A DNA stretch of 64,000 nucleotides from the NCBI GenBank assembly GCA_022843955.1, contig JALHMQ010000008.1:62001-126000 (forward strand). Direction: 5' to 3'. Source of the DNA: Burkholderiaceae bacterium. Lineage in GTDB: Bacteria; Pseudomonadota; Gammaproteobacteria; Burkholderiales; Burkholderiaceae_F. The number at the start of each line of letters is the position of its first letter. Positions within the stretch are counted from its first letter, which is position 1. The translations under genes were made by a program, and so were the position numbers. Below, one piece after another: positions 4,688 to 37,191 of the stretch. The notes below the pieces were generated by a model. That model saw only the letters and a program-made list of their open reading frames with translations. It ran no database searches and had not been told where the DNA came from.

Positions 4688-5815
4688 TCAGCCGCTGCTT
4701 CCCCCGAAGCTGCGCATGAAGCGGCGGTCGATGTGGTCTTTCCAGCGCCACACCCAATCGCCCTCGACGCTGAGCCCGCCCCAGTTGGCGATCGCGTGGC
4801 GGCGACCGGTCGAGAGGAGGTACAGCGCGCGCACCTGCGGCACGTGGCGGCGCAACGGCCGGCCGGCGACCGCGCGCCGCAGATTTTCAGTGAGCGGCGG
4901 GCCGGCGCGCACGGCGTACACGCCTGACTTGGGTCGCGGATGGCCGACTACGCTGGCGCAATCGCCGGCGGCGAACACGAACGGATGCGAGGTCGAAAGC
5001 TGGAACTCGTCGATCTCGATGAAGCCGCGCTCGTCGACCGCCAGCCCGGCCTCGCGCGGATAGCGCGCGGCCACGCTGCCGGTGGCGACGATCGAGAAGT
5101 TGGACGACAGCTCGCCGCCCTCGGCCAGCAGCACGGTGTCGGGGCCGAGTTCGACCGCATCGTCCTCGATCAGGCGGACTTCCATCTCTTTGAGCGCCTG
5201 GTGCGCCATGCGCCGCACGCGCGGCGAGAACGCCGCCAGCACGCCGGCCTTGCCGCTGACGAGTTGCAGCCGCATCGGCGGGCCGCTGCGCGCGCGCCAG
5301 GCCGCCGCCAATGCAATTTCCAGCCCGCCGGCGCCGCCGCCCACCACGGTCACGGTGGCGGCGTCGCCGCCGGTGCGCGCGCTGGCATCGATCACCGCGA
5401 GGGTCTGCTGCCACTGCGAGATGAAGTTCTCGATCGGGCGGATCGACAGGCCGTGCTCGCGCAGGCCGGGCAGGGCGTCAGGCTCCGGCGCTGGCCCGGT
5501 ATCGAGCGAGATGAAGTCGAACTCGATGCGGTGGCCGCGGTCGGTGGTGACGGTGCGGGTGGTGAGATCAAGCTGCTGCAGGTGGGCGCTGACCACCGTG
5601 ATCGGGCTGCCGCGCAGCAGTGGCGCGAGCGGGATCACGCAGTCATCGAGCGTGTAATGGCCGGCGATCCAGCCGGGCAGCATGCCGCTGTAGACCTGCC
5701 GCGGATACGGCGTGAGCAGGACGATCTGCGTGTCCGGCGGCGGCGCCTGACGAAACGCACGCAGCACGCTCATGTGGGCGTGGCCGGCGCCGACCAGCAG
5801 CAGGCGCGAGGTCAT
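4688..5815 (-). CDS. FAD/NAD(P)-dependent oxidoreductase, SelD-associated type (TIGR03169-like)
   Basis: 375 residues. The N terminus has an FAD-binding Rossmann motif (LLLVGAGHAHMSVLRAF), where the GHAH variant and the following VYSGMLPGWIAGHYTLDD are hallmarks of the family found alone or fused to the N terminus of selenide water dikinase (TIGR03169). A second dinucleotide-binding motif (VTVVGGGAGGLEIAL) lies near residue 160, and FVFAAGDCA near residue 285 closes the FAD site. It resembles type II NADH dehydrogenases but has no obvious membrane anchor. Its start overlaps the stop of the DUF3047 gene by 4 bp, so it belongs to the glycosyltransferase operon. Family knowledge suggests selenium or thiol chemistry; a role in the arsenosugar-type pathway is inference from position. 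Confidence 0.85.
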   Translation of the reverse strand: MTSRLLLVGAGHAHMSVLRAFRQAPPPDTQIVLLTPYPRQVYSGMLPGWIAGHYTLDDCVIPLAPLLRGSPITVVSAHLQQLDLTTRTVTTDRGHRIEFDFISLDTGPAPEPDALPGLREHGLSIRPIENFISQWQQTLAVIDASARTGGDAATVTVVGGGAGGLEIALAAAWRARSGPPMRLQLVSGKAGVLAAFSPRVRRMAHQALKEMEVRLIEDDAVELGPDTVLLAEGGELSSNFSIVATGSVAARYPREAGLAVDERGFIEIDEFQLSTSHPFVFAAGDCASVVGHPRPKSGVYAVRAGPPLTENLRRAVAGRPLRRHVPQVRALYLLSTGRRHAIANWGGLSVEGDWVWRWKDHIDRRFMRSFGGSSG

Positions 5816-6756
5816 CGGGCGGTCTCCGTGCCGAGCGTGATGTCGGCCACCAGCGCGCTGGCGGCGGCACCGGTGTTGTCGCCGTCGGCCGCCACGCCGA
5901 TCGCCGCCAGCGGCGGCAGGTAGCCGTCACGCGCCTCGTGCGCAAAGGCACGCCTGAAGTCGGCGCGCAGGTCGCGTGTCTCGCTTTGCCAGGTGCCGGT
6001 CGCATGGCCGCTCGCGGTCGAGCGCAACACCAGCATCTGCACGCGGCCGGTGTAGGCGTTGGGCAGCCAGGTGCCGGCCGGTTGGGTGGCATCCCACACG
6101 TAGCAGATCGCCGCGGCGGGCAGCTCGGGGTCGAACAGCGTGCGGCCGAGGCGGACCTTGAAGCGCTCGCCGGCGGTCAGGCGATCCAGCGGCAGGTCGA
6201 ACAGCACGCACAGGCGCGCCGGCATGTCGTCGGCCTCCTTGCGCGTGAGGTCGGCACCGGCCGGATGCTGCTCGACGCGCCAGCGCCAGCGCAGCAGCGG
6301 CGTGTGGTCGACCGCGCGACCGAGCGGATGCAGCAGGTTGGCGTAACCGCCGTCGGTCTGCATGCGCAGCACGCGCGTGCCGTCGACGCTGACGATGTCG
6401 TAGCGCGTGTGGCGCGGCTGCTTGGGCAGCGTCACGACTTTCCACGGGGGCGGCGGTGCGGCGTCGGCGGCGCCGGAAAAGGGCGCGATCTGCGCGGTGC
6501 CAGTGGGCGGCGGCTGCGCGAAGGCGGCCCCGGTGGTTGCCATGCAGAGCATGAGTGCCAGCGTGCGCGCGTTGGCTCGACGGCCTTCGCGCGCCGCACT
6601 CAGGCATGCGCCCTTGAGGTGGCTCGGCGGGAACATTGGGAGGCCCTCGCGATGCGCGCTCAGGCATTCGCCCTTGAGGCGGCTCGGCGGGAGGGATTTG
6701 AGACCTTCGCGCGGCGCGCTCAGGCATTCGCCCGTGAGGCGGCTCGTCGTGCTCAT
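5812..6756 (-). CDS. DUF3047 domain protein, N terminus encoded by 60-bp repeats
   Basis: 314 residues from the ATG at 6756, which overlaps the upstream stop by 4 bp. The first 58 residues are low-complexity repeats (LKGECLSAHREGL type) encoded by 60-bp tandem DNA repeats. A signal-peptide-like stretch follows (RRANARTLALMLCMATTGAA, then FAQ). The ATG at 6552 (MLCMATTGAAFAQ) is an alternative start that would leave the repeats intergenic, but it would lack the basic n-region. The mature part, about residues 85-310, is DUF3047: LLRWRWRVEQ, KEADDMPARLCVLFDLP, ICYVWDATQPAGTW, and a final strand with RDLRADFRRAFAHEA. DUF3047 proteins are periplasmic with no known activity, often beside transferase genes. 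The start is the least certain part of this call. Confidence 0.82.
   Translation of the reverse strand: MSTTSRLTGECLSAPREGLKSLPPSRLKGECLSAHREGLPMFPPSHLKGACLSAAREGRRANARTLALMLCMATTGAAFAQPPPTGTAQIAPFSGAADAAPPPPWKVVTLPKQPRHTRYDIVSVDGTRVLRMQTDGGYANLLHPLGRAVDHTPLLRWRWRVEQHPAGADLTRKEADDMPARLCVLFDLPLDRLTAGERFKVRLGRTLFDPELPAAAICYVWDATQPAGTWLPNAYTGRVQMLVLRSTASGHATGTWQSETRDLRADFRRAFAHEARDGYLPPLAAIGVAADGDNTGAAASALVADITLGTETAR
6582..6750. repeat. 60-bp tandem repeat array
   Basis: The sequence repeats with an exact 60-bp period. Units beginning at 6601, 6661 and 6721 all start CAGGCAT(G/T)CGCCC, continue TGAGG(C/T)GGCTCG, and are preceded by CGCG-rich ends (GCGCCGCACT, GATGCGCGCT, GCGGCGCGCT). Two full units and two partial ones are visible, with a few substitutions each. 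Because 60 is divisible by three, the array stays open as 20-residue repeats in the frame of the DUF3047 gene. It lies exactly between two genes that otherwise abut by ATGA, which suggests expansion at the junction. Confidence 0.9.
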
Positions 6757-36188: not shown

Positions 36189-36225
36189 CTCGATCAGATC
36201 GCTTGAACGCTGAAAGAGGGCAGGT

Positions 36226-37191
36226 TCAGACGAGCGCGCCGCCGCAGCTCGAGCCCTGGCCCGCGGTGCAGCCGTAGCAGTGGTCGGCCACCAGGATCGG
36301 GTTGTCGGTGAGGTCGAGTTCGAGCCAGTCGGTCAGGTGCAGCCGGCCATGGCCCTTGCCGTCTTCGCGCAGCGGCAGGCCGAGCATCTGGTTGAAGTCG
36401 CAGTCGTAGAGGAAGCCCTGCCAGTCGACCGAGACCAGGCTGCGGCACATCACCGAATCGACGTTTTCGGGCCGGTGCGCACCGCGCAGCGTGCCCATGT
36501 AGTCGCGGAACTGGCCCTTGCTGATCAGCGTGGAGCCGAAGCGCGAGATCGGCATGTTGGCGAGCGCATACAGGCGCGTGAAGACGATGCCGAAGCGCTC
36601 GCCCAGCAGGCGGCGGTAATCGGCTTCGAGCGCCTGCTGCGGCGGCGGCAGCGATGGCCCCTGCGGGTTGTAGACGAGCGACAGCGGCAGCGCATCGCTG
36701 TGGCCGTAGCCGAGCGAGTTGAGCAACTGCAGCGCGCGCACGCTCTTCTCGAACACGCCGTTGCCGCGCTGCTTGTCTACGTTGTCTTCGAGGTAGCAGG
36801 GCAGCGACGCGACGATCTCGACCTGCTGGTCGGCGAGGAACTGCGCCAGGTCCTCATGGCCGGGCTCGAACAGGATGGTGAGGTTGCAGCGGTCGATTAC
36901 GTGCACGCCGCGCGCGCGCGCCTCGCGCACCAGGTCGCGGAAGTGCACGTTCATCTCCGGCGCACCACCGGTCAGATCGAGCTTGCGGATGTCCTTGGCG
37001 GTGATGACGTCGAGCACGTCGTCGATCGTCTCGCGGCTCATCTGCTCGGTGCGGTTGGGACCGGCGTTCACGTGGCAGTGCACGCAGGTCTGGTTGCAGG
37101 TGTAGCCGAGGTTGATCTGCAGCGTGTCGACCTGCTGCCGGCGCAGCGTCGGGAAATCGGTGATCTTCAGCAGGGGCAGGGTGGCGTGCAC
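36226..37191 (-). CDS. arsS: Radical SAM/selenodomain protein ArsS (TIGR04167), Cys form
   Basis: 321 residues from a GTG at 37191 with GGAG five bases upstream. The radical SAM cluster motif is CNQTCVHC with Cys32, Cys36 and Cys39. The C-terminal selenodomain shows MCRSLVSVDWQGFLYDCDFN and the signature DHCYGCTAGQGSSCGG with Cys305, Cys308 and Cys316. In part of the family the last position is selenocysteine; here it is a TGC cysteine codon. ArsS acts after ArsM: it joins a 5'-deoxyadenosyl group to dimethylated arsenic in arsenosugar biosynthesis. It is the first gene of an operon with a symporter, a metallophosphoesterase-like protein and a TVP38/disulfide reductase fusion. No arsM lies in the window. 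Confidence 0.93.
   Translation of the reverse strand: MHATLPLLKITDFPTLRRQQVDTLQINLGYTCNQTCVHCHVNAGPNRTEQMSRETIDDVLDVITAKDIRKLDLTGGAPEMNVHFRDLVREARARGVHVIDRCNLTILFEPGHEDLAQFLADQQVEIVASLPCYLEDNVDKQRGNGVFEKSVRALQLLNSLGYGHSDALPLSLVYNPQGPSLPPPQQALEADYRRLLGERFGIVFTRLYALANMPISRFGSTLISKGQFRDYMGTLRGAHRPENVDSVMCRSLVSVDWQGFLYDCDFNQMLGLPLREDGKGHGRLHLTDWLELDLTDNPILVADHCYGCTAGQGSSCGGALV

Follow-up and report, generated by a model that had tools for sequence, protein, structure and literature searches.

The stretch analysed here, called the window throughout, comprises 64,000 nucleotides of contig C8 (G000:C8:62001-126000) from the 5.54 Mb draft genome of a Burkholderiaceae bacterium, and it encodes the radical S-adenosylmethionine (SAM) enzyme ArsS, transferases of the families TIGR04282 and TIGR04283, and several accessory proteins. 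These genes probably constitute one arsenosugar cluster, whose ancestral order was interrupted at two junctions by unrelated genes and whose accessory families take part in the pathway. The ancestral order would read ArsS, transporter, metallophosphoesterase-fold protein (MPE), VTT/flavoprotein fusion, DUF547, TIGR04283, TIGR04282, DUF3047 and TIGR03169. The core is the known system, and its interruption here is a local event with parallels elsewhere; what is new, as far as found, is the group of accessory families, MPE foremost, together with hints of a related pathway free of ArsS. No paper linking the accessory families to ArsS was found in the literature, which is weak evidence of novelty, subscription journals being thinly covered. 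Arsenosugars are major arsenic compounds in algae and seafood. In the published chemistry, ArsM makes dimethylarsenic(III), and ArsS joins dimethylarsenic(III) to the 5'-deoxyadenosyl group of SAM.

All genes of the cluster lie on the minus strand. The right block consists of ArsS (36226..37191; TIGR04167 458.9 bits, cut-off 300), a Na+/solute-symporter-like transporter (SSF; 34773..36188; TIGR00813 31.9 bits at a cut-off of 184, PF00474 21.8 bits at a cut-off of 22.8), MPE (33739..34770; replaced motif I and invariant cysteines) and a fusion protein joining a TVP38/VTT membrane domain to a flavin disulfide reductase (31452..33686; PF09335, PF07992, PF02852), with gaps of 37, 2 and 52 bp in gene order. 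After about 3.3 kb follows a DUF547 protein (27269..28117; PF04784 52.7 bits), and after a further 19.2 kb or so the left block with the GT2-like TIGR04283 transferase (7386..8078; 251.2 bits, cut-off 182), the CofC guanylyltransferase-related TIGR04282 transferase (6753..7382; 201.2 bits, cut-off 134), a DUF3047 protein with uncertain start codon (5812..6552; PF11249 196.4 bits) and a standalone TIGR03169 flavin oxidoreductase (4688..5815; 358.3 bits, cut-off 310), spaced by 3, 200 and -4 bp. The original prediction, made from the sequence, had placed all eight families of the two blocks correctly, as judged by profile or Pfam matches, weak in the case of the symporter, and, for MPE, by predicted fold. 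Its description of the blocks as coupled holds for most junctions and fails between TIGR04282 and DUF3047, where the 200 bp gap lies; that its two blocks belong to the same system is well supported, and they make up a single ancestral cluster broken twice, of which DUF547 had been overlooked.

For comparison, 80 arsS loci were collected with flanks of up to 10 kb per side, the closest relatives of the window gene being Burkholderiales records at 80-85% identity (G, L and C handles stand for genomes, loci and contigs). The split of the cluster is secondary. In relatives, the eight families follow one another on a single strand over roughly 9 kb, in window order: L023 at 10001-18571, and G022 on its contig C8 from 333143 down to 323622. 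Seven of the eight are found inside 9.4 kb in L004, and L005 is arranged as ArsS-MPE-fusion-DUF547-TIGR04283-TIGR04282-TIGR03169-DUF1499. Across the 80 loci the usual order, on one strand, is ArsS, transporter, MPE, fusion, TIGR04283, TIGR04282 and then TIGR03169. By tblastn, the fusion was present in 56 loci, TIGR04283 in 50, TIGR04282 in 43, MPE in 35, TIGR03169 in 15 and the symporter in 14; these are lower bounds, many contigs being shorter than the searched span, and the flavoprotein counts take in distant paralogues down to about 27-31% identity. Gene order (gaps, slots, neighbours) was tallied in 77 of the 80 loci, leaving out L030 and L032 (organism and layout as L028) and L082 (layout as L077). 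L028, L030 and L032 come from a Pseudogulbenkiania subflava record in which the same arsS layout stands on three contigs, a repeated cluster or an assembly artefact.

The 19 kb insert holds ordinary genes (a CheB/CheR-PAS protein, an RND pump, a kinase, a beta-propeller protein). Domains were scanned in seven proteins between 8219 and 25478 plus DAO, with shorter frames outside the scan; four of the scanned proteins were without a Pfam match or were ordinary genes. Insertion of a mobile element as the cause of the split was rejected, no transposase or integrase domain being found in the long frames of the insert. A comparable layout occurs in G107, where ArsS, MPE, fusion and DUF547 are separated by about 23.6 kb from TIGR04283, TIGR04282 and TIGR03169, thus broken at the same DUF547/TIGR04283 junction as the window. 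No window insert protein that was searched had a match in the G107 insert; the two splits therefore look independent, with no common insert.

Co-occurrence was determined in 120 genomes of the order, from 49 families, using the same genomes for every gene. ArsS was counted as present where the TIGR04167 cut-off was passed, which was true for 41 genomes and left 79 without. E-value limits of the profile searches varied between families, and those for the symporter and the fusion were strict, so that their rows stand for subfamilies. TIGR04283 was present in 41/41 ArsS genomes and 1/79 others, TIGR04282 in 41/41 and 2/79, TIGR03169 in 37/41 and 2/79, the fusion in 36/41 and 2/79, DUF3047 in 34/41 and 7/79, MPE in 23/41 (including G009 with two short fragments and G091 with two pieces) and 0/79, and the symporter, the weakest family, in 5/41 and 0/79. 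Fisher p values for co-occurrence with ArsS ranged from 1.9e-31 (TIGR04283) to 0.0039 (symporter). To control for kinship, ArsS labels were permuted inside taxonomic families (8 mixed families, 24 genomes), giving p values of 0.0003 for TIGR04283, 0.0002 for TIGR04282, 0.00025 for the fusion, 0.0018 for TIGR03169, 0.0002 for DUF3047 and 0.013 for MPE.

In 28 of the 41 ArsS genomes, no more than 15 kb separate TIGR04283 from ArsS, and the two share a strand in every case; the distance is 15-60 kb in three (the window's, G107 and G065) and larger on the ArsS contig in one, and in nine, these being drafts, TIGR04283 is on another contig. MPE is within 15 kb of ArsS in 15 of its 23 genomes, and in the other eight farther away or on another contig; though unlinked there, it is still confined to ArsS genomes. 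That the blocks form one system, as the original prediction had proposed, is well supported by the same-strand runs of relatives together with these profiles, in which every left-block family co-occurs with ArsS; the profiles had been set beforehand as a possible refutation. It is very improbable that the blocks are neighbours by coincidence and owe their operon-like look to a general conservation of gene order. The ordinary genes in the 19 kb between the blocks and the genomes with TIGR04283 on another contig would fit such an explanation; the constant strand of the linked pairs, the breakage of G107 at the same junction around an insert sharing none of the proteins searched, and the co-occurrence inside taxonomic families speak against it, and the linkage and co-occurrence counts largely refute it.

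The window MPE remains without a Pfam match up to E 10, Metallophos_2 is reached weakly by 15 of 23 aligned homologues (best 1.9e-5), and a PDB sequence search with the MPE profile returned chance matches only (best E 0.25). A predicted model, for which the 23 homologues were aligned, had a mean predicted local distance difference test (pLDDT) score of 92.6 and best matched 3qfn_A (Z 20.3, root mean square deviation (rmsd) 3.2, 238 aligned), with 2gju and 1nnw tied and with calcineurins lower at Z of about 15. Judged from this model, the overall fold is that of a metallophosphoesterase. The closest folds are thus SapH, an asymmetric Ap4A hydrolase/phosphodiesterase (3qfm, 3qfn) to which MPE is 19% identical, and the archaeal relatives PH1004 (2gju) and Pfu-1218608 (1nnw), from which MPE differs by G-x-Y at motif I and by invariant cysteines. 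Canonical calcineurin-like members bind their metals through D-x-H, GD, GN, H and G-H-x-H. All 23 aligned MPE sequences have G33-L/V/P-Y35 at motif I, neither D nor H, and retain G61-D62, G88-N89, H161 and H204; the last motif is SHTC-like, not GHTH, with C206 in the window protein and the other aligned members. By convention, the lost ligands are presumably those of one metal site. Cysteines 6, 103, 105 and 206 are invariant in 23/23, and we hypothesise that they provide a site for trivalent arsenic.

ArsS has the CX3CX2C motif CNQTCVHC, with C32, C36 and C39 invariant in 11/11 aligned sequences (PF04055 47.1 bits), and the C-terminal motif CYGCTAGQGSSCGG, in the cysteine form rather than the selenocysteine form. 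The TIGR04282 protein reaches 47.1 bits on the F420 CofC (2-phospho-L-lactate guanylyltransferase) model, far below the family cut-off of 105, and the TIGR04283 protein 29.1 bits on PRK13915 (glucosyl-3-phosphoglycerate synthase), far below the cut-off of 262; from sequence, these matches suggest the reaction type only. A passage of PMC12159101, citing Cheng 2021, assigns arsenic adenosylation in arsenosugar synthesis to a radical SAM enzyme, and one of PMC8552651, citing Xue 2019, the initial steps to Synechocystis ArsS and ArsM. A TIGR04282 gene adjoining an iodate island is mentioned in PMC8801600.

The chemistry after ArsS can be sketched as follows, each step being a candidate. Dimethylarsenic would be supplied by a general ArsM on contig C22. 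Adenine would be removed from the ArsS product; in those relatives that have a gene for an MTAP-type phosphorylase next to arsS, this enzyme would do so and leave an arsenic-bearing ribose 1-phosphate. The CofC-like TIGR04282 enzyme would activate the arsenic-bearing ribose, and TIGR04283 would transfer the activated ribose to a glycerol-type acceptor, and MPE may act on a phosphate group of an intermediate, by removing or cleaving it. At the membrane, arsenic and thiols could be maintained in the reduced state by the VTT/flavoprotein fusion and the TIGR03169 flavoprotein, the transporter (the symporter here, or a PhnD-type ATP-binding cassette (ABC) importer elsewhere) could move an arsenical or a phosphate-like substrate, and DUF547 and DUF3047 might handle the product at the cell envelope.

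The window contains no arsM, as the original prediction had noted, and a search of the whole genome located one elsewhere: among 16 matches to the arsM model a single one is above the cut-off, on contig C22 (G000:C22:29559-30377; NF008823 359.7 bits, cut-off 263). No arsenic gene was recognised in the four neighbouring frames scanned there. The other NF008823 matches of the genome were at 51 bits or less and gave no arsenosugar-type ArsM, NF038099 itself not having been run genome-wide; true NF038099 members of L029 and L082 reach 136 and 104 bits on NF008823. These two are arsenosugar-type ArsM inside the arsS clusters of relatives (508.5 and 400.5 bits, respectively, cut-off 400). Two ArsM-like frames of other genomes, G009:C20:26124-26777 and G076:C34:83633-84298, each contain one in-frame TGA and may be selenoproteins; PMC9312934 names arsenite methyltransferases that are selenoproteins.

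In 13/77 loci, arsS has an MTAP-family gene no more than 10 kb away, and on a Burkholderia glumae plasmid such a gene is directly beside TIGR04283; the L013 protein reaches 471.9 bits on PRK07432 (cut-off 453). MTAP and MPE are rarely together near arsS (13/77 and 34/77 loci, both in 2; Fisher p 0.031), and a TIGR01694 match of at least 295 bits is present in 7/18 ArsS genomes without MPE and 0/23 with it (p 0.0014), at a threshold picked after the data were seen and among related genomes. Mutual replacement of MTAP and MPE is not claimed, given the post-hoc threshold, the kinship of the genomes and the presence of both genes on the B. glumae plasmid.

Between ArsS and MPE, a transporter slot was evaluated in the 33 of 77 loci in which MPE comes after ArsS on one strand at a distance of at most 8 kb. 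The two genes are adjacent in 15, and enclose a symporter in 11, a PhnD-type binding protein in six and other genes in one; the L031 frames between PhnD and MPE resemble, by eye, a permease and an ABC ATPase. Since two unrelated importers occupy the same slot, one transport task is suggested. A homologue 62.8% identical to the window symporter is annotated as sodium:solute symporter (Marinobacter pHP-187). Symporters and PhnD-type ABC systems are normally importers, and the cluster could accordingly be read as one that does not make arsenosugars or other organoarsenicals but imports them and degrades or remodels them, with the importer, the phosphoesterase and the phosphorylase in catabolic roles. 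We consider this quite improbable. The contents of the slot, the nucleoside-cleaving nature of MTAP and the failure to find an arsenosugar-type ArsM in the genome, within the searches named above, speak for catabolism; against it stand the C-As bond formation by ArsS in synthesis, as reported in PMC12159101, the arsenosugar-type ArsM inside the clusters of L029 and L082, and the two transferases in every ArsS genome.

The reading of one biosynthetic cluster, with the accessory families included, is weighed against by the following points. The symporter, besides being present in few ArsS genomes (5/41), has a within-family permutation p of 0.25. TIGR03169 is missing from four ArsS genomes, the fusion from five and MPE from 18, so that none of them is universal, and the family cut-off is passed by only 31/37 TIGR03169 matches in ArsS genomes. 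DUF3047 occurs in 7/79 ArsS-free genomes, and TIGR04282 in the ArsS-free G014 and G074. G047 (L092, G047:C1:1008000-1026000) has fusion, DUF3047 and TIGR03169 adjacent to each other with neither ArsS nor either transferase; this trio can therefore exist without the pathway, and in G047 it may serve another use or be a remnant. On the side of the chemistry, the ArsM of the genome is of the general type, with 107 bits on the arsenosugar-specific NF038099 (cut-off 400), and the general model finds arsM in only 14/41 ArsS genomes and 3/79 others. The sole MTAP-family match of the window genome is of the methylthioinosine phosphorylase type (367.5 bits, cut-off 223), for which reason no dedicated depurination enzyme was identified in it. 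Phosphatase activity of MPE is doubtful because the ligands of one metal site are lost.

Some of these points would suit a division of labour in which ArsS and the two transferases alone make the arsenosugar, and the flavoproteins, TVP38, DUF547 and DUF3047 belong to a separate module for thiol or envelope stress that benefits the same bacteria and is often recruited next to arsS. Such a division is unlikely in our judgement. It draws on the G047 trio, on DUF3047 in ArsS-free genomes and on the fact that only TIGR04282 and TIGR04283 reach all 41 ArsS genomes, and further on unbroken frames of 851, 801 and 766 amino acids at TIGR03169 matches in surveyed genomes, which would fit TIGR03169 fused to SelD and would then point to selenium, not arsenic; the window protein, of 375 amino acids, has Pyr_redox_2 as its sole Pfam match and no C-terminal SelD domain. 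Opposed to it are the frequencies of the fusion (36/41) and TIGR03169 (37/41), each in only 2/79 other genomes, their same strand and same order in the cluster of many relatives, and MPE, which is never ArsS-free in the 120 genomes. The idea that the extra proteins are pathway parts, as the original prediction had it, is supported by association for MPE, the fusion, TIGR03169 and DUF3047, and less so for the symporter; the roles given to them there (transport, phosphatase, thiol redox) are putative.

The VTT part of the fusion scores 73.8 bits on PF09335 (gathering score 33.9), the flavoprotein part consists of Pyr_redox_2 and a dimerisation domain, and its redox pair CLNTGC (CX4C) has C277 and C282 invariant in 15/15 aligned sequences (L021, with a stop codon in its stretch, excluded). 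DUF3047 was predicted as a jelly-roll beta-sandwich (pLDDT 86.5). It resembles carbohydrate-binding modules, with Z reaching 13.1 for 4pw2 (rmsd 3.4, 156 aligned); ciliary proteins without relation to these score equally, and no function is drawn from the fold. Between TIGR04282 and DUF3047, a 60-base unit is repeated three times in tandem at 6582-6761, the copies being 77-78% alike; the repeat stays open when read in the DUF3047 frame and precedes the likely start of that gene. DUF547 is a further cluster member: homologues follow the fusion or flavoprotein and precede TIGR04283 on the same strand in 20/77 loci, and in L059, one of the 20, ArsS and MPE also sit in this interval.

Clusters without ArsS were found as well. 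In G014, which has no ArsS above the cut-off, one run holds a TIGR04282-like gene that stays under the cut-off at 101.5 bits, TIGR04283 (196.4 bits), a gene resembling ArsM that is 57-63% identical to the ArsM-like genes of four ArsS-bearing loci or genomes, another radical SAM protein and a VTT/flavoprotein fusion. This G014-type radical SAM protein has TIGR04167 scores of 48.4 and 61.3 bits, against a cut-off of 300. A special kinship with ArsS was not accepted, as the profile comparison (probability 97.9) mainly covers the widely shared radical SAM core.

In 72,556 plasmid records, ArsS was found in 52 and MPE in 47, and all 47 MPE records carry ArsS, with MPE beginning about 60 bp past the ArsS match in the rows compared. 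These 47 are all from Burkholderia glumae and thus one lineage, two with partial MPE, and the protein is annotated there as 'hypothetical protein'; the remaining five ArsS records have no MPE. The G014-type radical SAM protein has two relatives in the same records at E 1e-30. One, on Roseomonas p546-1, is accompanied by TIGR04282, DUF547, a second radical SAM protein, PhnD-PhnE-ATPase (PhnC) and an MPE-type metallophosphoesterase that shares the replaced motif I (here GGPYSN) and has a CGC pair, with DUF547, flavoprotein and VTT genes on the opposite strand; its link to arsenic is indirect, because no ArsM is annotated in the stretch. The other, on Marinobacter pHP-187, is apparently frame-shifted and is followed by the symporter mentioned above, the only member of the window symporter subfamily in the plasmid records at E 1e-60. 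The accessory genes thus travel with both kinds of radical SAM enzyme. A second radical SAM protein beside DUF547 is seen at L101 12117-13514, L104 6571-7950 and L102 14503-15876, 52-64% identical among the three plasmids, with 106 bits on TrsS (cut-off 490) and 71 bits on tetraether lipid synthase (cut-off 450).

We regard it as possible, without favouring it, that at least two parallel organoarsenical pathways share a downstream toolkit and start from different radical SAM enzymes: one from ArsS, as in the window, the other, represented by G014 and the Roseomonas and Marinobacter plasmids, from the distinct radical SAM protein in its place. The common toolkit would comprise an importer and a phosphoesterase-fold protein with a rebuilt first metal site, possibly turned into a cysteine site for trivalent arsenic.

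Among known systems, the NCBIfam arsenosugar system (ArsM, ArsS TIGR04167, TIGR04282, TIGR04283), studied in Synechocystis, is closest, and its three families other than ArsM pass their cut-offs here. The window's version differs in being in three pieces, with ArsM on another contig and not of the NF038099 type, and in adding MPE, the VTT/flavoprotein fusion, TIGR03169, DUF3047, DUF547 and the symporter. The arsinothricin genes arsQML of Burkholderia gladioli likewise combine ArsM and a radical SAM enzyme to give an organoarsenical, with a transporter gene beside them; ArsL, however, is another radical SAM enzyme, and no TIGR04282/TIGR04283 pair is described in the passages of PMC8552651 that were consulted.

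The redoxin, sigma factor, anti-sigma factor and DUF1499 genes near the blocks are also on the minus strand. Upstream of DUF547 lie an AhpC/TSA redoxin (SelL-related; 28120..28644; PF00578 57.6 bits; NF040769 50.4 bits, cut-off 120), an NrsF-like anti-sigma factor (28687..29331; NF042994 127.9 bits, below the cut-off of 300) and an extracytoplasmic function (ECF) sigma factor (29328..29891; NF009188 263.5 bits, cut-off 250), the stretch having gaps of 2, 42 and -4 bp counted upstream from DUF547. Membership of the redoxin is uncertain, no close homologue having been found in the arsS loci. Homologues of the sigma factor (62%) and of the NrsF-like protein adjoin arsS in L034, and the pair is a possible regulator. 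ECF sigma genes recur near arsS, for example in L003, L005, L006, L017, L031, L045, L051, L077 and L101, mostly of another ECF group than the window's, and the B. glumae plasmid adds an annotated zf-HC2 gene. A promoter and terminator scan of 26000-38600 gave no signal exceeding shuffled sequence. A DUF1499 protein (4045..4542; PF07386 104.2 bits) lies past TIGR03169, an arrangement found elsewhere only in L005 and L006 (2/80 loci). HIBADH (37352-38251) was left out as a member, being beside arsS only in close relatives (7/77 loci overall). Also in the window are an AAA ATPase of 336 amino acids at 38428-39438 (AAA_2 and ClpB_D2-small matches; ClpX-like by eye) and two large CheB-CheR-PAS proteins at 8219-11356 and 46157-50563, the second with additional histidine kinase and receiver domains.

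The published pathway appears to end at the ArsS product. With the ArsS-associated families and an ordered set of candidate steps, the half of arsenosugar synthesis that is still missing can be tested one gene at a time; the MPE family would gain a function, and the ArsS-free clusters would point to a second organoarsenical pathway. If parallel pathways do exist, arsenic would be taken up on purpose for a wanted compound, and not only detoxified.

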